Below, one piece after another: positions 4,301 through 28,314 of a DNA stretch of 34,589 nt (within the stretch, counting starts at the first letter, position 1; each line of letters begins with the position of its first letter). The notes under the pieces were generated by a model. That model searched no databases, had not been told where the DNA came from, and saw nothing but the letters and a program-made list of their open reading frames with translations. This stretch comes from a virus. The stretch covers positions 1-34,589 of IMG/VR virus record IMGVR_UViG_3300025168_000300; one strand, given 5' to 3'. Position numbers and translations under genes: made by a program.

Positions 4301-5298
4301 TTTCCAGAATTTGCTCTTCTTTTAGAGACTAACATATCTGCTATTTCATATTGTAATAAAGTTTGATTACCTGTTCCTTTTCTTCCCCAAAATCTATCCG
4401 AATCTGAAATATAGGTGAATCCATTTTCTAATTCTAAATCATTACCTACATAAGGTGTCCATCCCCATTCTAATAAAACTGGGTAACCTGGTCTCATATA
4501 AAGTAATTCCATAACAGAAAGTTGTCTTAAATTATGACATACAAAATCTATTTTAGCTTCTCTTAAAGAACCATAGGCTGATTTTGTTCTAACGGATACA
4601 TTAGTAATTCCTGCCATAGGAACTATTCCGTAACTCTCACCATACTCATCTATTCTACTATCTGATCTAGATAAAGGATCTCCGTATGCTGTCCCTAATA
4701 ATTTTCCTGCTTGAGGGAAACCTGATCTCATTTTAGGTTCATTAAAACCTTCTGGGTTTAAAAGAGTTCCTCCTTCAAGCATATAATTTCTAGCTAAACC
4801 ATAACCTAATAGTTCCTTTTCTAAAACAACACCATTAAATTCATAATCTAAATCTAATATAGTCTCTTCAGTTAGATCTACCATAGAGGCCATTCTTAAA
4901 CCACAATATCTTTGTGTCATCCAACTATGCCAATACTCAGATTTGATAAAATATCCTCTTTTTTTATTTCTTTCAGCAATTTCTTCCTCAGACATTGCGT
5001 ATACTGGAAAAATACCTGCGTCTGGGTTTATTAACTCTCTTTTCTTTTTCCCATTTTTTATAACTGTGTGAAATGATCTAGCATATTGAGAATAGGAACC
5101 TATTCCCTCCATATTTGTCCCTACAGCTATTCCATCAAATCCTGCTCCTCTGAACCCCCTACTTTCTCCTACCATATTTCCCATCCCTCTTGAAACAGGA
5201 CCAGTACCATATTGACTCACTCCATGAGCTATCATACTTTGTCTTATGTAAAATTGATCATTTACATAAGGGTATAAAGTGTCTTTAAATATTCCCAT
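1387..5298 (-). CDS. Large baseplate hub-like protein with EGF-like Cys-rich insert (1303 aa)
   Basis: Likely the baseplate hub (gp27 / gpD-like fold), which seats the tail tube. Residues about 230-285 hold a motif seen in phage hub proteins, with LSVMELLYMRPGYPVLLEWG followed by WTPY. Residues about 979-1037 look like the final hub domain: SGLVIGQMFRINESRLPKQY, then FIIIAEETSIDAEGNWITKI, matching the general pattern 'xGIxIGQxFxI..xLPxxY...FxI.....I....W.T'. T4 gp27 has 391 residues, so this protein is over three times longer and probably fuses additional domains. Residues 1137-1172 contain eight Cys in an EGF-like spacing ending CECECEEGFEPKDGKC, followed by a five-Pro linker and a roughly 120-residue C-terminal domain. 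It starts 13 bases after the LysM-type gene. The hub call rests on remembered patterns; the exact T4 counterpart is uncertain. Confidence 0.6.
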   Translation of the reverse strand: MGIFKDTLYPYVNDQFYIRQSMIAHGVSQYGTGPVSRGMGNMVGESRGFRGAGFDGIAVGTNMEGIGSYSQYARSFHTVIKNGKKKRELINPDAGIFPVYAMSEEEIAERNKKRGYFIKSEYWHSWMTQRYCGLRMASMVDLTEETILDLDYEFNGVVLEKELLGYGLARNYMLEGGTLLNPEGFNEPKMRSGFPQAGKLLGTAYGDPLSRSDSRIDEYGESYGIVPMAGITNVSVRTKSAYGSLREAKIDFVCHNLRQLSVMELLYMRPGYPVLLEWGWTPYVGNDLELENGFTYISDSDRFWGRKGTGNQTLLQYEIADMLVSKRRANSGNYDGVLGLCKNFSYTARDDGGFNCSTELMAMGDVLSSLKPKNITIIGNINIDKVKKATDGAIYLENLDSSGANIMKMPTLMDFLLATFDYKYGVLEDAGSADHIAGGYKDFQERHYAGKDEVYGTGDDTYKKGLYYNRSPRNQTAPIVRKGLFYIDRRVTFNIDRDMVEKTYENEFFDNGSGNIPPIYKPLYLMHFAKGRDGWATFWKGAEALAGYYADRGSWLAWGLELAIDFFTDDKRVLSECYIRLDALLYIINSRCMTEIPKKPDQKITCYQTLQHFPNKPSGEKYRMHEMNSYQLKSQQLFKSLWWEDRPTGAGFTDRSAVQSMMDGSVDPYTCLMPWQFPDQFGIKLVNNVYELEGQYNKEFIQPCRNFVGFPDEDFETGAEFDKSFPGKTKAEKQTSMQSIGHIMLNIEFLLEVHERLFKQSEFTGYGVGNYLKEVLNGINEATGGQHKLAIVSDNEFNHISNIVDLNKPTKTRFQDIFIFDVLSNHSCVREFTFTTSIPTAMSSTIAVAAGNPDSIDSLDAVSFASMNRGVSNRLYRNTPPSTKKITKVDKNKLIKQMKGEMNELVELLDNLSEFQAKVASGEYFTKGNDAWKNKVASNKHMLSRASTLVDILGTKDDDGMTVRNPPTPTPIPINIDIEIDGISGLVIGQMFRINESRLPKQYRRKKICFIIIAEETSIDAEGNWITKIKGQMQLYPGVPQQVGNGSSNEWGYGDGMNYSKDWDDHEKKYDAREKENTTRTGDKPWEDVGVSESEWYSMAPRERERLKREATTGVDEETELEKQQRLAKEMQDYDPCDDVTCNENEVHVKSNDGQDCECECEEGFEPKDGKCVEIPPPPPAYVWDDSNAEITHTVHLDGMGNSPKLDIKIGRGYNFGGHVNKDDPTKLHAYEGTNGTKEQLMWGYDDSSAMVAEDRLIYYSEYLDDWAYDIESTFDELKYLSENSNDEYEAWKASGFKDDFVY

Positions 5299-11315: not shown

Positions 11316-11543
11316 TTAGAAGTTATATGTTGAAGATGGTTTTATGTTAGGTCTGTGTATTTTTTTATTTTCCTCTAGTTCAGATGACCCTGTTTGTTTA
11401 TCTCTTTCTTCTTGTTGTTTTTGGTTATGTTGGTTTATTCTATCAATATGAAAAGTTCTCATCCATACTGGCATATTATAAACTTCTGAATGTAGAAATC
11501 CTCCTCCTCCATGATATACTAAATCATGAATAGCGTCGAACAT
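11316..11543 (-). CDS. Small tail assembly chaperone-like protein, possibly expressed by frameshift (75 aa)
   Basis: The sequence GGGGFLHSEVYNMPVWMRTF followed by HIDRINQHNQKQQEERDK resembles the C-terminal part of phage tail assembly chaperones ('GGfswsdVYNMPVWLRkfhi..i...' type). Such proteins are encoded just before the tape measure gene and often made by ribosomal frameshift from the preceding gene. Here the frame is +1 relative to the gp26-like gene and stays open upstream from ATG 11543 through the T7 run at 11571-11577, without a stop. The ATG lies 7 bases after the upstream stop and has no evident ribosome binding site, so translation as a fusion tail of the 280-aa protein is plausible. 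Independent initiation by coupling is the alternative. Confidence 0.65.
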   Translation of the reverse strand: MFDAIHDLVYHGGGGFLHSEVYNMPVWMRTFHIDRINQHNQKQQEERDKQTGSSELEENKKIHRPNIKPSSTYNF

Positions 11544-11550
11544 TGATTTT

Positions 11551-12393
11551 CTATAAGTCTGCGTCAGGCCAAAAAAAGTTGAGCCCCAAGGGAATACTTA
11601 CGCCCTCCGCAGTCGCTCCACTAGAAAAGTCTAAATCGACTTTCAAATCAATATCAGGCATGATTTCATTTAAATAATTTCTAAGAGATTTAGAATCTCT
11701 TGCTAATAAAGCATTATCAACAAATTCTCTAATTGTTTTTAGTTCATAATCACCATTTACAGATAAAATCATATGTTTTAAACGTGTAGTTAATTCTGCT
11801 GAATGAAATTTGTTGATTTTTTTAAGACCTTTTAATTCTTTAGTAATTTTTTCTTCATCACCATGAGTTAACATTTTAAAAGTAATATCAATTTTAGAAT
11901 GAGGTAAATTAAAATTAAATTCATTTTTACCATTTTTCATTAAACTTTCATCAAGTTCTTTATCGTCTAATTCTGTTAGATCTACTGTTACTTGTTCTTC
12001 TTCACCTGTTGAAGGATCTCTGTAGTTAAAAGTATAATCACTACCATATCCTAAGATACGAGCAGCTATTAATAATGAATTTTTATCTCCTATTAATAAA
12101 TCATTATAATCACAAGGTGTAACAATGACAGACTGTAATAGTTTATTTATTACTGTACCATTTTTTATGTAATTTTGGTTTGTTAAAATATCCTCTTCTC
12201 GAGCAGTCATATACTTCATTCGTATAAGTCCTGATCTTAGGGGATGACCTTCTGGGTAAAGTAAACCTCTTGAAGGTAAAGTAACTTCCTCTGTTGGGAA
12301 CTGGTATGTTTGTTCTTCCTGTGAGGGAGTTGATGGGGATTGGGTGTTTGAAAGTGGTTTATTTTCCATAAACTCGTTTGTTGTTTGTTTCAT
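11551..12393 (-). CDS. gp26-like baseplate/tail assembly protein (T4 baseplate family, 280 aa)
   Basis: Residues 1-35 are a disordered Ser/Thr/Pro/Gln segment. The conserved part begins with VTLPSRGLLYPEGHPLRSGL, followed by IRMKYMTAREEDILTNQNYI, KNGTVINKLLQSVI, and then GDKNSLLIAARILGYG. This pattern is that of the T4 gp26-like baseplate family (PF12322), proteins needed for hub assembly or acting as tail assembly chaperones in T4-like marine phages. T4 gp26 has 208 residues. The C-terminus ends IPLGLNFFWPDADL. The codons for FF lie in a run of seven T just before the end, where a +1 or -2 shift enters the frame of the 75-aa gene. It follows a late-type motif at 12429-12437, 35 bases upstream of the ATG, and a terminator after the tail tube gene. 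Confidence 0.72.
   Translation of the reverse strand: MKQTTNEFMENKPLSNTQSPSTPSQEEQTYQFPTEEVTLPSRGLLYPEGHPLRSGLIRMKYMTAREEDILTNQNYIKNGTVINKLLQSVIVTPCDYNDLLIGDKNSLLIAARILGYGSDYTFNYRDPSTGEEEQVTVDLTELDDKELDESLMKNGKNEFNFNLPHSKIDITFKMLTHGDEEKITKELKGLKKINKFHSAELTTRLKHMILSVNGDYELKTIREFVDNALLARDSKSLRNYLNEIMPDIDLKVDLDFSSGATAEGVSIPLGLNFFWPDADL
11571..11577 (-). promoter_or_regulatory. Candidate +1/-2 programmed frameshift site (T7 run)
   Basis: On the minus strand the zero-frame codons read AAC TTT TTT TGG. A +1 slip of the second TTT, or a -2 slip, allows perfect re-pairing on TTT and continues as GGC CTG ACG CAG ACT TAT AGA without a stop into ATG 11543. A -1 slip would give TTG GCC TGA and end at once. 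The fusion would be 358 (+1) or 359 (-2) residues. The site is 18 bases before the zero-frame stop codon. Confidence 0.45.
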
Positions 12394-12428
12394 AACGTTT
12401 TTTGATTAATAACTATTTTTTGTTCAGA

Positions 12429-12437
12429 TATACATAT
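12429..12437 (-). promoter_or_regulatory. Conserved late-type motif ATATGTATA upstream of the gp26-like gene
   Basis: The minus strand reads CTATATATGTATATCTGAAC, 35 bases before the ATG at 12393 and just downstream of the terminator at 12445-12476. It belongs to the G variant of the window-wide ATAT(T/G)TATA motif. Promoter role is inferred. Confidence 0.5.
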
Positions 12438-12444
12438 ATAGAGA

Positions 12445-12498: not shown

Positions 12499-12984
12499 TT
12501 AGTAATTTAATATAGCATAATCCATTCTGATAGTTAATGTAATTTCAACAGGTGTATCAACACTCCAATCCATTTCTCCAAAATTTGCTTGTTGTACATA
12601 AGCTCCTTTCATAATCCATTCTTCAACTATATCACCTACAGGACCTAATGCATTAAATCTAATGTCTTTTTTGTAGAAATCAGAATAACCATCTCTACCT
12701 GTAACTGATTCATGTGACAAACGAACCCATTCCATTACTGCTTGAGCACCTGATGGTGTTACTGGGTCATAAAGAGTAGCTGTAACATTTTGCCAATCTG
12801 CTTTACCTTTTAATTTTCTTTTCACATTAATGTGATCAAGAGTTATGTCTCCAAATTGTACATTAGGTCTTGATATTTTTTTCACTAAAAATGCTGGTAT
12901 ACCATCTATATACATTATAAACCTATTTTGTACTTTAGGTTCAAATGCAGTGAACATGATTTCGTTTGTGTTTAATATTGCCAT
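12499..12984 (-). CDS. gp19: Tail tube protein (gp19-like, 161 aa)
   Basis: Forms the inner tube of the contractile tail. Length 161 matches T4 gp19 (163 residues). Features of the T4 gp19 tube family are visible: FEPKVQNRFIMYIDGIPAFL near residues 14-33 (first strand and loop), KKISRPNVQFGDITLDHINV, KRKLKGKADWQNVTATLYDP (the conserved 'G...W.dvt.tlyd' strand), a helical VMEWVRLSHESVTGRDGY segment, and a C-terminal PVEITLTIRMDYAILNY strand. The start ATG is 25 bases after a late-type motif. It lies directly downstream of the sheath gene, the usual 18-19 order of T4-like phages, and is followed by a strong terminator, consistent with high expression as a separate unit. The protein ends in Tyr. 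Confidence 0.87.
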   Translation of the reverse strand: MAILNTNEIMFTAFEPKVQNRFIMYIDGIPAFLVKKISRPNVQFGDITLDHINVKRKLKGKADWQNVTATLYDPVTPSGAQAVMEWVRLSHESVTGRDGYSDFYKKDIRFNALGPVGDIVEEWIMKGAYVQQANFGEMDWSVDTPVEITLTIRMDYAILNY

Positions 12985-15663: not shown

Positions 15664-15951
15664 TTATTTTGAGGGTGTAAAATCTCCTGTTTCTATATCA
15701 ACATTTCCTACTCCATATTTTGAAGCATATTCCTTACCTAGTTCTGCTTCTTTTTGGTCTATTTTTTGAAGTTCTGCTTTAAGATTATTTTCTGTTTGTG
15801 TTAGTCTTTCTCTTTGTATAGAAATTTGACCTAAACTATATATAATTTTATCTGTTTCTCCTTGAAGTCCTCTAAGAATTTGTAGATCTTTATCTTCAAA
15901 TTTTGTAGATTTTGTTGCTGATGGTTTTTGGGTTTTTTCTTTTACTGCCAT
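15664..15951 (-). CDS. Small coiled-coil protein of unknown function (95 aa)
   Basis: After a basic N-terminus (MAVKEKTQKPSATKSTKF), residues about 20-75 form a heptad-like helix (LQILRGLQGETDKIIYSLGQ, then QISIQRERLTQTENNLKAEL). The C-terminus reads KYGVGNVDIETGDFTP. This layout (coiled coil followed by 'KYGxGxIDxETGxFTP') is one I have seen in small proteins encoded among structural genes of marine and crAss-like phages, without a known function. It has its own late-type motif (15986-15994) and a hairpin behind it, so it appears to be a single-gene unit between the fibre array and the sheath. Role in tail or fibre assembly is inference. Confidence 0.65.
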   Translation of the reverse strand: MAVKEKTQKPSATKSTKFEDKDLQILRGLQGETDKIIYSLGQISIQRERLTQTENNLKAELQKIDQKEAELGKEYASKYGVGNVDIETGDFTPSK

Positions 15952-15985
15952 AACTTTATTTTATTATTAATAATTGTTGTTCTTA

Positions 15986-15994
15986 TATACATAT
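15986..15994 (-). promoter_or_regulatory. Conserved late-type motif ATATGTATA upstream of the 95-aa gene
   Basis: The minus strand reads CGCATATATGTATATAAGAA, 34 bases before the ATG at 15951. It is the G variant, with a right flank (TATAAGAACAA) similar to the copy at 12429-12437. Promoter role is inferred. Confidence 0.5.
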
Positions 15995-16003
15995 ATGCGA
16001 ATT

Positions 16004-23426: not shown

Positions 23427-25844
23427 TTATAATGCACTACCCGTTATGGATAAATGTCCTGAATTATTTACTGTAAATCTAAATTTATTTCCATTAGGGG
23501 CTGTTAGTATTATTCCTTGAGAAGATGAATCTCCTGCATAAATATCTCCACTAGCACTTATACTTCCTACTACTGATAATTCTTTTTGAGGATCCATTCC
23601 TCCTATTCCTACTCTACTTCCTGTTAGTATTAAAGTATTTGTTGCACTTCCACTAAATATTTTTACTATTGATTGCTTTGTCCCATCTTTATTAATTTGT
23701 AAAACCTGTAGTGGTTTTTTAGATTCATTTGCATTATATGAAAATCTAAATTCACTATTCCAATCTGTTTTATTGAAATCATCTGCCCCATCTTTAAAAG
23801 CTAAATAACCTGCATGATTAGATGATGAACCAATCATAGAGATTTCTGGGGCTCCCTCTTTAGCTTCTAAAACAAGTCTTGGTTTACTTGCTGAAATATG
23901 TAAGTGTGCAGAAGCTGAAGGGTAAATATTATTATATTGGTCATTAAATGAATTACTTCCTGAAGGACCAATTGCTTGTGTGTCTCCTATCCCTATGGTT
24001 TTAAAAAGGGCTATATCTTTTCTAACAACCCCATGATGTACCCCATCTACTGTTACATCTGCTCCTTGTTTTATAGTGTAAGTAGAGTTGTTTTGGATTG
24101 TTATTGAATGAGGATCCGTTGTTATTGGATTATTATTTGGATCCTCAGATTGTGTTACGTTTGTAGTTGTGTGTAAAATTGTAACAAAATTTTCTGGAAC
24201 TGTTGCATTGTGTCTTATAGTTACATCGTTACCTACTCCTGCTGTCCCTGCTCCAAAACCTTTCATTAAGGTTGTTTCAGAATCTATATTTGCTTGAGCA
24301 TAAGGAATAAAATCACCTGTATCAACATCATATCTATATAATCTTTCTGCTATTGGAGTGTATTGTAAATCTACTTGGGCATCTGTATTTATTGTATAAT
24401 TTGATCCCATAGGGATTGTAAATTCTCCCGTATTATTAGTAACTATAGTATTATTAGTATTAGGAGTTATTGTTACACTACCTGTTACTGATACTTCATT
24501 ACCATGGACTCCTGCTCCTAAATTAGTTATACCACTACCATCTCCTACTAAATAACCAAAAGAACCAGTACCACTAGCACTTACATTACAACTTGCTGTT
24601 AATTGACCTTTAACGTGAAGGCTAGAATCACAATCTTCTCCTATTGTTACCTGATTTCCTATTATATTATGTCCTCCACTTGCACTTAAATTTCCACTAG
24701 CTGTAACAGATACTTGGGCAAAAAGATGTCCTGACATGTTTATCATAGTAGATTGATCATTTTCTCCTATTTGGAGAGATGAACCTGAATCTGGTAATAC
24801 TTGGTCTAAGGTTATTGATCCAACATTAGTTATATTTTGATCTCCAAAATCAGCTCCATAAGCATATAACATTCCGCTTGCACTTATTTCACCTGAAGCT
24901 GTTAAAGATCCTGAAGCTCCACTAGATGATCCTGCTAAAAATAGAGAACCAGTTATAACACTAGAGCCACTTCTATGACCTGTTACTTTAAAAGTATCTA
25001 ATGTGGACGCGAATCCTGCACTTGAAGTGTAAAAGAATTGTCCTGATTGTGAATTGTAAGTTGCTATATTTTGAAATCCTAAGGAAGCTGAAATATAACC
25101 AAATGACCCAGTTGCTCCAATTACTGTTCCACTTGCACTTATGTTTCCACTAGCTGTTATATTTCCTGATGATCCAGATATTATTACTGTTGCTTGACCA
25201 AATCTTACATTATTTGCAAAATAACCTTCATTTGCAAATAAAGTTCCATTACTTGAACTTATATTTCCTGATGCTTGTATTGTAGTAAAACTAGCAGAAG
25301 AGGCTCCACCAAATCCTATTGCTGAATTATCAATATCTATGTTTTTAATCATACCTGAACTACCAGATAACATACTAAAGGAACCAGATATAGATGTTAA
25401 ACTATTTATTGTCGCTATATTTTTATTAGAATCAAGTATTAAAGCTTTTTTTGCTTGAGCTATTCCAACAAATACCTCGTCTATAGCAAAAAGGTCTGCA
25501 TCGTCTACATTAACACTACCAACTCTAAAAAATGTGCCTGCTTCTATACTTTGGTCTGAAAGTATTTTTCCATTAGTTGATAACTCCCCATTGGCAGCAA
25601 TAGTTAATCCTGAATTTCCATATCCACCTCCAACTGTTATACTGGGGAATGCTGTTACCCCTGATATGTCTAGATAAGCAAAACTACCTGTTGTAGCTGA
25701 TATAGTTCCACTAATAGTAACAGTTCCCGTGTTAACTTCTGACATATGAACAATAGAATCAATCAGATCCCCAAATTGTGCTTGAGTTGGTCTATCTCCT
25801 GTTTGAAATGTTGCCTTTATTACTGAGGTTGGTTGTATTGCCAT
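23427..25844 (-). CDS. Tail fibre protein with DLIDS-type head and complex C-terminal region (805 aa)
   Basis: The head reads VIKATFQTGDRPTQAQFGDL, then IDS, the 'xFxTGDxPTxxQFxDLIDS' motif of phage structural proteins; the 172-aa fibre-like protein at 30330 has a related head. Residues about 45-450 are repeats (ASGNISASGTVIGATGSFGY) with a GDGSGITNL motif, a common fibre turn. The C-terminal 350 residues are less repetitive: VTITPNTNNTIVTNNTGEFT, RPRLVLEAKEGAPEISMIGS-like strands, then VGIGGMDPQKELSVVGSISA, which matches the 'VGIGTTxPxxxLxVxGxISASG' motif close to fibre tips, and a final GIILTAPNGNKFRFTVNNSG strand pair. No S74-type intramolecular chaperone motif is seen. A late-type motif lies 21 bases upstream of the ATG. 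Confidence 0.78.
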   Translation of the reverse strand: MAIQPTSVIKATFQTGDRPTQAQFGDLIDSIVHMSEVNTGTVTISGTISATTGSFAYLDISGVTAFPSITVGGGYGNSGLTIAANGELSTNGKILSDQSIEAGTFFRVGSVNVDDADLFAIDEVFVGIAQAKKALILDSNKNIATINSLTSISGSFSMLSGSSGMIKNIDIDNSAIGFGGASSASFTTIQASGNISSSNGTLFANEGYFANNVRFGQATVIISGSSGNITASGNISASGTVIGATGSFGYISASLGFQNIATYNSQSGQFFYTSSAGFASTLDTFKVTGHRSGSSVITGSLFLAGSSSGASGSLTASGEISASGMLYAYGADFGDQNITNVGSITLDQVLPDSGSSLQIGENDQSTMINMSGHLFAQVSVTASGNLSASGGHNIIGNQVTIGEDCDSSLHVKGQLTASCNVSASGTGSFGYLVGDGSGITNLGAGVHGNEVSVTGSVTITPNTNNTIVTNNTGEFTIPMGSNYTINTDAQVDLQYTPIAERLYRYDVDTGDFIPYAQANIDSETTLMKGFGAGTAGVGNDVTIRHNATVPENFVTILHTTTNVTQSEDPNNNPITTDPHSITIQNNSTYTIKQGADVTVDGVHHGVVRKDIALFKTIGIGDTQAIGPSGSNSFNDQYNNIYPSASAHLHISASKPRLVLEAKEGAPEISMIGSSSNHAGYLAFKDGADDFNKTDWNSEFRFSYNANESKKPLQVLQINKDGTKQSIVKIFSGSATNTLILTGSRVGIGGMDPQKELSVVGSISASGDIYAGDSSSQGIILTAPNGNKFRFTVNNSGHLSITGSAL

Positions 25845-25896: not shown

Positions 25897-28314
25897 TTAG
25901 GCTAAAGCTGGTGTGTCATTTGTTCTTCCCTCTACAATATATTTTTCTCCGTCACTTACTATAGTAAACCTATCTCCAACTTTAGGATTTACTAATGTTA
26001 TCCTAGTTACTCCACTTCCAAAATCAGTTCTTGCCATAGTAGAATCGGTATCATCATTAGCATTATCCATTACATACCCTTGCATTATTGCGGCAGGAGC
26101 TAATAGGATATGTTCTACGGCGCTAGCCGCTATAAATCTGTAATTTACACCTTTAGAACCATCTATTGATGGTAATTGGAATGTTTGTGCTGATGCTCCT
26201 GATGGCATTAATAATACACCACTATCATTTATACTTAATTCTAAGGATGAAGCTTTTATTATTTTTTTACTTTTAAATGCTCCAGAAGCATCATATCTAA
26301 CTAATTTACTAACTTCAATAGAATCATCATCAGTTTTAACAAGTTGGTTTAAATCATTTACGCCTCCAATAAATCCATCTAATTTATTTAATTCAGCTGC
26401 TGTTGATGATACTGTTACTCCTCCTATTTGAAAACCACTAGCTGCATTTAAAGTTCCATTTGTTGTTGTTTCTGCTGCTATTGTTGCAATTCCTCCTACT
26501 GTTAAAGCTCCCCCTACTAATGCTGTTGCACTAGCTGTGAAAGGAAGTGTTACACTTACAGGTAAAGAAGGTATTTGCAAGTGTGCTCTTTCCCCTATTA
26601 CATTATATTGTACACCATTTATTTGTGAATCATCATTTAAGTTAAATCTATATCCTAAATTATTTCCTACTTGAGCTTGAACTGATTGTCCTTTTAATAA
26701 ACTTCCACTTATAGTTCCACTTGATGATATAGCGCCTGCTGCAAATGTTCCACTCATGCTTATATCTCCACTACAAGAAATATACCCAAATGAACCTGTA
26801 CCATCAACACCATCACCTCCTGGAGAAATACAATTTATACCCCCTTCAAACGAACCGGTTCCACTTGAACTAATATCTCCACTACAAGAAATAAACCCAA
26901 ATGAACTAGTACTTAAAGTATCCGCTTCAAATCCTAAACTTGCACTTACTCTACTTGCACTTACATGGCCTAATCCGGGAGTATTATTACCTACTATTAT
27001 AGATCCTGATACTGATAAAATACCTAAACCTGATTTATTATAAGTTAGTCCAGTATCACTTCCCATATTTGTACCACCATCATTAAATTGTATAAATGTG
27101 TCTGAACCGTGAGCTGTAGCAGCACCTACACTAGCTGTTACATTAGTAAGATATCTTCCATCTCCTGCAAAATAACTTGAAGAAATAGTTCCACTAGAGC
27201 TTATTGTAAATTCTAATTCATCAGATGCTGATATAAACATATATCCCATAGAACTTGATCCACTTAATATAAGATGATCCATAGAAGATGTTACACTTAT
27301 AATTTCTCCACTTGAACTTACATATCCAAACGAACTTGTACTTAAAGTATCTGCTGCAAACCCACTAGCACTTATCATACCACTAGCACTAATATCAGTA
27401 AGAACTTCCCCTGTTATAGATATATTTTCAGTAAATATATTTCCACTTGTACTTATATCTCCACTAGCTGAAATATACCCAACTGATGCTGTTGTAGTAG
27501 ATGCTATGACTATACCTCCTATAAATGAACCAGTTCCACTGGCACTTACATTACCTACTATTTCACTTGTTACTTGTAAAAATTCAAAGGAACCTGTACC
27601 TGAAGATGATATGTCTCCACTTGAACTAATATATCCAAATGAACCAGTTGCATTAGGAGATTCTATTCCTCCTTGAAACGATCCTGTTCCACTAGAACTA
27701 ACATTACTTGTTGCAATATATCCAAATGAACCTGTAGCTCCTGTTGCTACTACACCTCCTTGAAAAGAACCAGTTCCACTAGCACTAACTGATCCACTGA
27801 TTTCACCACTTACAAAGAAATGATTAAAAGATCCTGTTCCTGCTCCACTTACAAAAGTATCTACACTTACACTAACTACATCTAAAACAGAACCTGTAGT
27901 TCCTACTCCTGTTAGTTCACTTCCATCTCCTCTAAAAATAGATGCTGATATTCCCCCACTAGCTGTAATTGTAGTAAAGGGAGGTAATTCTAATTCATCA
28001 AATTTACCTACTTTTCCATATACTATTCCACTTGCACTTATTTCACCTGAAGCTGTTATATTTGCTATATGTAATTTATTCCATTCTTTTACTGTTGAAC
28101 CTAAATTATAAGTTACTGTAGCATCTGGAATTATACTTGAACTTATTTCTGCTGTTAAACTTACTGAATCTGTTGTTGCATCTCCTAATTTAATAGATCC
28201 ACTCATAGTAATATTATCAGCTACTATTAAGCTTTGAGATATTTTTAAAGATCCCGATATATTAACTATAGATCCTGAATCTGGATAAATTGTATTTACG
28301 AATAATGTACTCAT
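25897..28314 (-). CDS. Repeat-type tail fibre protein (805 aa)
   Basis: The head has SGSIKLGDATTDSVSLTAEI and VTYNLGSTVKEWNKLHIANI (about 40-90), similar to the 1011-aa fibre. Shaft repeats of the GTGSFQGGVVATGATGSFGY type run to about residue 600, with two GDGSxLTxV turns. Near 620-640 lies VSSTAAELNKLDGF, a recurrent 'TATAAELNKLDG' fibre motif. The tip (about 700-805) shows QTFQLPSIDGSKGVNYRFIA and, near the end, VGDRFTIVSDGEKYIVEGRT, related to the tip of the 1011-aa fibre by the pattern 'F/YxLPxxxKGxxYxFIA....G....ISDGxxxxI'. Two fibres with related heads and tips but different shafts suggest a duplicated fibre pair. It begins 16 bases after the stop of the Cys-rich 658-aa gene. Confidence 0.8.
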   Translation of the reverse strand: MSTLFVNTIYPDSGSIVNISGSLKISQSLIVADNITMSGSIKLGDATTDSVSLTAEISSSIIPDATVTYNLGSTVKEWNKLHIANITASGEISASGIVYGKVGKFDELELPPFTTITASGGISASIFRGDGSELTGVGTTGSVLDVVSVSVDTFVSGAGTGSFNHFFVSGEISGSVSASGTGSFQGGVVATGATGSFGYIATSNVSSSGTGSFQGGIESPNATGSFGYISSSGDISSSGTGSFEFLQVTSEIVGNVSASGTGSFIGGIVIASTTTASVGYISASGDISTSGNIFTENISITGEVLTDISASGMISASGFAADTLSTSSFGYVSSSGEIISVTSSMDHLILSGSSSMGYMFISASDELEFTISSSGTISSSYFAGDGRYLTNVTASVGAATAHGSDTFIQFNDGGTNMGSDTGLTYNKSGLGILSVSGSIIVGNNTPGLGHVSASRVSASLGFEADTLSTSSFGFISCSGDISSSGTGSFEGGINCISPGGDGVDGTGSFGYISCSGDISMSGTFAAGAISSSGTISGSLLKGQSVQAQVGNNLGYRFNLNDDSQINGVQYNVIGERAHLQIPSLPVSVTLPFTASATALVGGALTVGGIATIAAETTTNGTLNAASGFQIGGVTVSSTAAELNKLDGFIGGVNDLNQLVKTDDDSIEVSKLVRYDASGAFKSKKIIKASSLELSINDSGVLLMPSGASAQTFQLPSIDGSKGVNYRFIAASAVEHILLAPAAIMQGYVMDNANDDTDSTMARTDFGSGVTRITLVNPKVGDRFTIVSDGEKYIVEGRTNDTPALA

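Follow-up and report, generated by a model that had tools for sequence, protein, structure and literature searches.

Comparative evidence for +1 programmed frameshifting in the gp26/gp51-like tail assembly chaperone genes of a large phage group

Results

The long form of a tail assembly chaperone is very probably made by +1 programmed frameshifting from a pair of overlapping reading frames in the virus record analysed here, a stretch of 34,589 bases which is called the window below. Comparison with relatives supported this reading through the frame relation, a conserved site, missing starts in relatives, a switch in codon periodicity and homology to the gp26/gp51 pair. A programmed +1 or -2 frameshift within 11544-11600 had been proposed in the initial annotation, and the relatives strongly supported a programmed event at this junction, while the full feature was found to extend from 12393 to 11316.

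Gene organization at the locus

The features of the locus were collected in Table 1. The upstream gene, recognized as gp26-like in the initial annotation, is TAC-N, which matched PF12322 (T4_baseplate, E 4e-8) and phrog_150 (E 5e-14), and the gene behind the 75-aa ORF was identified by BLASTP as the tape measure gene. The arrangement was of the G/GT type, with two overlapping ORFs flanked by the tail tube and tape measure genes. On the minus strand, the zero frame read AAC (11580-11578) TTT TTT TGG CCT GAC GCA GAC TTA TAG (11553-11551). The T7 run lay at 11577-11571, and the +1 frame read across it as ACT TTT TTT GGC CTG ACG CAG ACT TAT AGA AAA TCA ATG without any stop. A -1 shift at the site soon met TGA (TTG GCC TGA). 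The +1 fusion was 358 aa in length (first row of alignment A1), and a -2 fusion would contain one Phe more. The initial annotation had read the junction in the same way, including the end of the zero frame, the downstream ORF open in the +1 frame back through the run, the early TGA after a -1 slip, the fusion of 358 or 359 residues and the ATG at 11543. The motif TTT[T/C]TTTGGCC occurred only once within the window, and no tRNA genes were found in it. The first post-shift codons, GGC CTG ACG CAG (11570-11559, minus strand), were all rare in this AT-rich genome, as would be expected if the stretch is constrained by both frames.

Table 1. Features of the chaperone locus in the window
Feature	Position	Strand	Evidence
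Tail tube gene, upstream of the chaperone pair	12499..12984	-	phrog_4542 tail tube, E 3e-26
TAC-N (short form), 280 aa, gp26-like tail assembly chaperone / 'baseplate hub' gene	11551..12393	-	PF12322, phrog_150, gp26 profile
Putative frameshift site TTT_TTT_TGG_CCT (mRNA UUU_UUU_UGG_CCU), +1 slip on UUU codon	11566..11577	-	codon strings of 172 clusters
Zero-frame stop TAG, end of short form	11551..11553	-	
TAC-C (+1-frame part), read ...F GLTQTYRKSMFDAIHDLVYHGGGGFLHSEVYNMPVWMRTF...	11319..11573, stop codon 11318-11316	-	alignment A2, hhalign
75-aa ORF, mechanical listing	11316..11543	-	
Tape measure protein gene, 778 aa	8917..11253	-	BLASTP to annotated tape measure of Flavobacterium phage immuto, E 5e-31

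Conservation of the +1 frame in relatives

Relatives were gathered from isolate records and from six IMG/VR scans, for which both window proteins and more divergent family members were used as queries. Among the 352 sequences collected, 347 had a zero-frame stop, and these loci fell into 184 clusters at 90% amino acid identity, 174 of them complete. In 338 of the 347 loci the +1 frame was open for 30 codons or more and crossed the zero-frame stop; of the remaining nine, six were truncated at contig ends, and L096, L273 and L277 were real exceptions. TAC-C was in the +1 frame and at least 65 aa long past the site in 172 of the 174 complete clusters. The alignment of the junction in relatives, which had been suggested as a check, gave a near-invariant site and an open +1 frame in these 172 clusters, and neither a +1-frame stop on the way from the T run to the downstream ORF nor separate well-initiated genes, either of which had been named as counter-evidence, was found in them. 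The 17-mer CTTTTTTTGGCCTGACG was also searched in all IMG/VR contigs and retrieved at least 120 loci; among the matches listed, 120 of 120 had an open upstream zero frame and chaperone context, 114 had the +1 downstream domain and six were cut off by contig ends. As judged from this comparison, the frame overlap together with the site is far beyond chance.

The +1 pair was carried by a large group of uncultured and mostly aquatic phages. The same +1 relation was present in two isolates, Flavobacterium phage immuto and Microcystis phage Mel-JY01, and the isolate hosts include Bacteroidota and cyanobacteria. In both isolate records the pair was annotated as two separate genes with no frameshift annotated. 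There, TAC-C was listed as a hypothetical gene of its own whose start was arbitrary (L093 5851-5961 and L094 5737-5973, the immuto and Mel-JY01 records).

The peptide motif GLTxxYR...GGF..VYNMPIWxR was conserved in TAC-C (39-row alignment A2). The clusters share descent and their counts are not independent, so that counts of changes on the tree (FastTree) are the fairer measure. The zero-frame stop, which mainly ended 21 or 27 nt past the site start, was relocated at least 20 times on this tree with the +1 frame open and GLTxxYR retained, and the run of T changed about six times. Upstream of the site, the information content was lowest at position 3 of the zero-frame codons (0.32 bits vs 0.47 and 0.61). 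It was lowest at position 3 of the +1 frame both from the site to the zero-frame stop (0.66 vs 0.88 and 0.93) and past the stop (0.43 vs 0.64 and 1.15). This switch of the low-information codon position showed that the frame under selection changes at the site.

The putative slippery site and its variants

The site comprised 12 near-invariant bases, UUU_YUU_UGG_CCU in most clusters. The 172 clusters contained TTT_TTT_TGG_CCT (130), TTT_CTT_TGG_CCT (22), TTT_TTT_TTC_CCT (5), TTC_TTT_TGG_CCT (3) and CTT_TTT_TGG_CCT (3), plus seven rare strings. Wobble positions were conserved within the site and not just upstream of it, and CCT was present in 168 of 172 clusters compared to 37% of Pro codons across these genes. 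The conservation of UGG_CCU is only partly explained by the fact that CCT stands for Pro when read in frame 0 and for Leu in the +1 frame whatever base comes next. Every cluster (172/172) had an in-frame UUU with U or C as the next base, so re-pairing of tRNA-Phe after a +1 slip would be possible in all of them. As to which Phe codon slips, TTT_CTA_TGG points to the first and TTC_TTT_TGG to the second.

A search for stimulators at the sites of relatives gave neither a conserved Shine-Dalgarno element upstream nor an RNA structure downstream (mean fold z -0.3 to -0.7 vs -0.9 for the control stretch). Codon counts in the window gave no advantage to the A-site codon reached by the shift (UGG 6.8 vs GGC 1.9 per 1000). 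Since UGG was commoner than GGC, simple tRNA competition fails to explain the shift, and an explanation by rare codons was unsupported.

Alternatives to a +1 ribosomal shift

A -2 ribosomal slippage on the T run would reach the same frame as +1 and yield a fusion one Phe longer, and it is considered improbable. Such a shift is known for the tail chaperone of phage Mu, with the same net frame (PMC5009743), and Phe re-pairing after -2 would be possible in 143 of the 172 clusters, the window among them. Re-pairing was not shared by all relatives as a Mu-type site would have it: tRNA-Phe could not re-pair after -2 in 29 clusters with TTT_CTT, TTT_CTA, TTC_TTT_TGG and TTC_TTC variants, where Leu-tRNA re-pairing in the CTT variants would require wobble. 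Compatibility with -2 changed about six times on the tree and the frame was kept. Of the two directions offered in the initial annotation, +1, with re-pairing in 172/172, was thereby favoured over -2.

The two parts might also be separate genes, with translation of the 75-aa protein beginning at ATG 11543, perhaps as reinitiation following termination at the TAG. This is given very little probability, in spite of the position of that ATG 7 nt past the zero-frame stop and of the many gene starts in the window genome without a Shine-Dalgarno site; since most window genes lack one, its absence at ATG 11543 is weak evidence. Among the 159 clusters scored between the site and the GG motif, an in-frame ATG was absent in 146, none of ATG, GTG and TTG occurred in 89, and a start with a Shine-Dalgarno match was present in only two. 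GLTxxYR, which is located upstream of any start, was conserved. Separate initiation was rejected by the missing starts for most relatives; the ATG of the window itself is probably not the true start, although re-initiation there is conceivable.

Separate ATG genes for the downstream domain do seem to be used in the sister relatives L273 and L277, but the clusters with their own TAC-C start have lost the site. This single sister pair, with its own ATG in another phase and decayed sites (TTC_TTG_TAT_CCT and TTC_CTT_TGG_CCA), is a natural control at the sequence level. The separate ATG-initiated TAC-C gene of L273 (3650-3711 onward) carries a new stretch (MENIDNLLREIQST...) at its N-terminus, and that of L277 does likewise (one of the contigs is 188 kb). 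In the third exception, L096 (LR756511.1, from a 595 kb phage), the gp26-like gene, at 4795 onward, was a distant one with a possible downstream partner in -1 phase and an overlapping TAATG start; this pair may use coupling or -1 shifting.

RNA polymerase slippage on the T7 run, giving mRNAs one base shorter or two longer, is just as unlikely as separate initiation. The main site variant is a T7 homopolymer, but a conserved long homopolymer was not found, as 29 of 172 clusters had no run of at least six T and about six independent changes were counted, and transcriptional slippage offers no explanation for the conservation of UGG_CCU past the run. Both -2 slippage and RNA polymerase slippage were rejected on the site variants that have no T run. 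Homopolymers are error-prone in some sequencing methods. A sequencing or assembly error in what is truly one normal gene has a negligible chance and was already refuted by the relatives, in which the +1 relation was found in hundreds of independent contigs, in the isolates immuto and Mel-JY01, and in variants with no homopolymer.

Comparison with T4-like chaperones

The tail assembly chaperone pair of T4-like phages is gp26/gp51 (Vladimirov, Gautam and Davidson 2022, Virology 566:9-15, as cited in PMC10885494 and PMC12846349), and for T4-like groups a long form made by frameshifting at a poly-T site is proposed (as cited in PMC12846349). The TAC-N profile matched the gp26 family of cyanophages and others (hhalign probability 96%, E 3e-9), and TAC-C matched the short gp51-like domain found in T4-like phages of the -1 type (hhalign probability 91, P 1e-6). 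In direct profile comparison, TAC-N had no match to the single T4 gp26 sequence and TAC-C gave no signal with T4 gp51 alone; a PDB search with the fusion profile returned no match. The 75-aa part had been correctly located before the tape measure gene, and its homology to the short gp51-like chaperone domain was added here.

Thirteen T4-like phages were compared (Kyanoviridae, HTVC008M, phiN3, Stenotrophomonas, Vibrio, Aeromonas and Ackermannviridae). In 13/13 the second part was in the -1 frame, open for 52-61 codons past the stop, and 11/13 had TTTTTT at the site. Both parts were homologous to the window pair, with two Phe codons at the same place, whereas the comparison phages would shift -1 at poly-T and the window family +1 at UUU_YUU_UGG_CCU. 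The direction therefore appears to differ between clades of one homologous pair. In T4 itself, 26 and 51 are separate genes on opposite strands.

Other features of the window

Most gene starts in the window lacked Shine-Dalgarno sites and had A-rich leaders. A ATATTTATA-like element was repeated upstream of several gene starts (11253, 15532, 23346, 25844 and 33954), and leader-like repeats were shared among window genes (12391-12439 vs 15949-15996). These elements are possibly promoters of a Bacteroidota-infecting phage. Genome contigs were scanned for host clues and no relative was found. Two adjacent proteins (23427-25844 and 25897-28314), each of exactly 805 aa with 'SASG/TGSFGYI' repeats, were weakly alike (30% over about 140 aa) and had no PHROG match; they are probably tail fibre or other structural proteins.

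Discussion

In the proposed mechanism, which we hold with high confidence as a whole, most ribosomes would stop at the zero-frame TAG and release the short form, and a minority would shift by +1 at UUU_UUU_UGG. There, tRNA-Phe (anticodon GAA), bound as peptidyl-tRNA to a UUU codon, would re-pair one base downstream on UU(U/C), then the ribosome would read GGC CUG ... into the long form, which consists of the short form and the downstream domain. If the pair works as lambda gpG/gpGT does, the tape measure protein would be coated by the short form, and recruitment of the tail tube protein would fall to the downstream domain. Two forms of a tail assembly chaperone are usual, with frameshifting as the source of the longer one, and -1, -2 and +1 shifts are each used in some phages (PMC5009743). 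Lambda gpG/gpGT (Xu, Hendrix and Duda 2004, as cited in PMC5009743) is likewise placed between the tail tube and tape measure genes and also has short and long forms, but the lambda frameshift is -1 and that of the window family would be +1.

A P-site tRNA that slips +1 from CUU onto UUY is also known at the yeast Ty1 site CUU_AGG_C. For influenza PA-X (UUU_CGU, as cited in PMC7230728), the P-site tRNA slips +1 from UUU to UUY, as is proposed here. PA-X and Ty1 are eukaryotic systems with CGU or AGG in the A site, whereas the window family has UGG. The prfB (RF2)-type site, CUU_UGA with a Shine-Dalgarno sequence just upstream, does not match either; the A-site codon of the window family was UGG, UUC or UAC and never a stop, and no upstream Shine-Dalgarno sequence was conserved.

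A +1 frameshift in tail chaperones was already proposed for the HF1-group and HSTV-2 haloviruses (PMC7230728 and PMC5009743). These are also myovirus tail chaperones, and the HF1 site TTT-CGC is UUU followed by a pyrimidine as in the window family, but the viruses are archaeal and the downstream codon differs. The view of the initial annotation that such a case would be unusual holds among T4-like phages, where the 13 others compared use the -1 frame. A +1 tail-chaperone shift is not new as a category; that of the window family would be a variant within it.

The finding would explain a mis-annotated gene in phage records (immuto gp038 and Mel-JY01 WWT39326). It also makes available, from bacterial viruses, a very large number of natural examples of a +1 recoding site, whose variants already test the mechanism. 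With somewhat more confidence than doubt, we propose that UUU_YUU_UGG_CCU is a compact bacterial +1 signal which works in phages of distant hosts without Shine-Dalgarno or RNA structure, and that the T4-like homologous pair switched direction (-1 vs +1) in evolution with both products kept. Opposite frameshift directions in one homologous gene pair suggest that selection holds the two products and not the direction of the shift.
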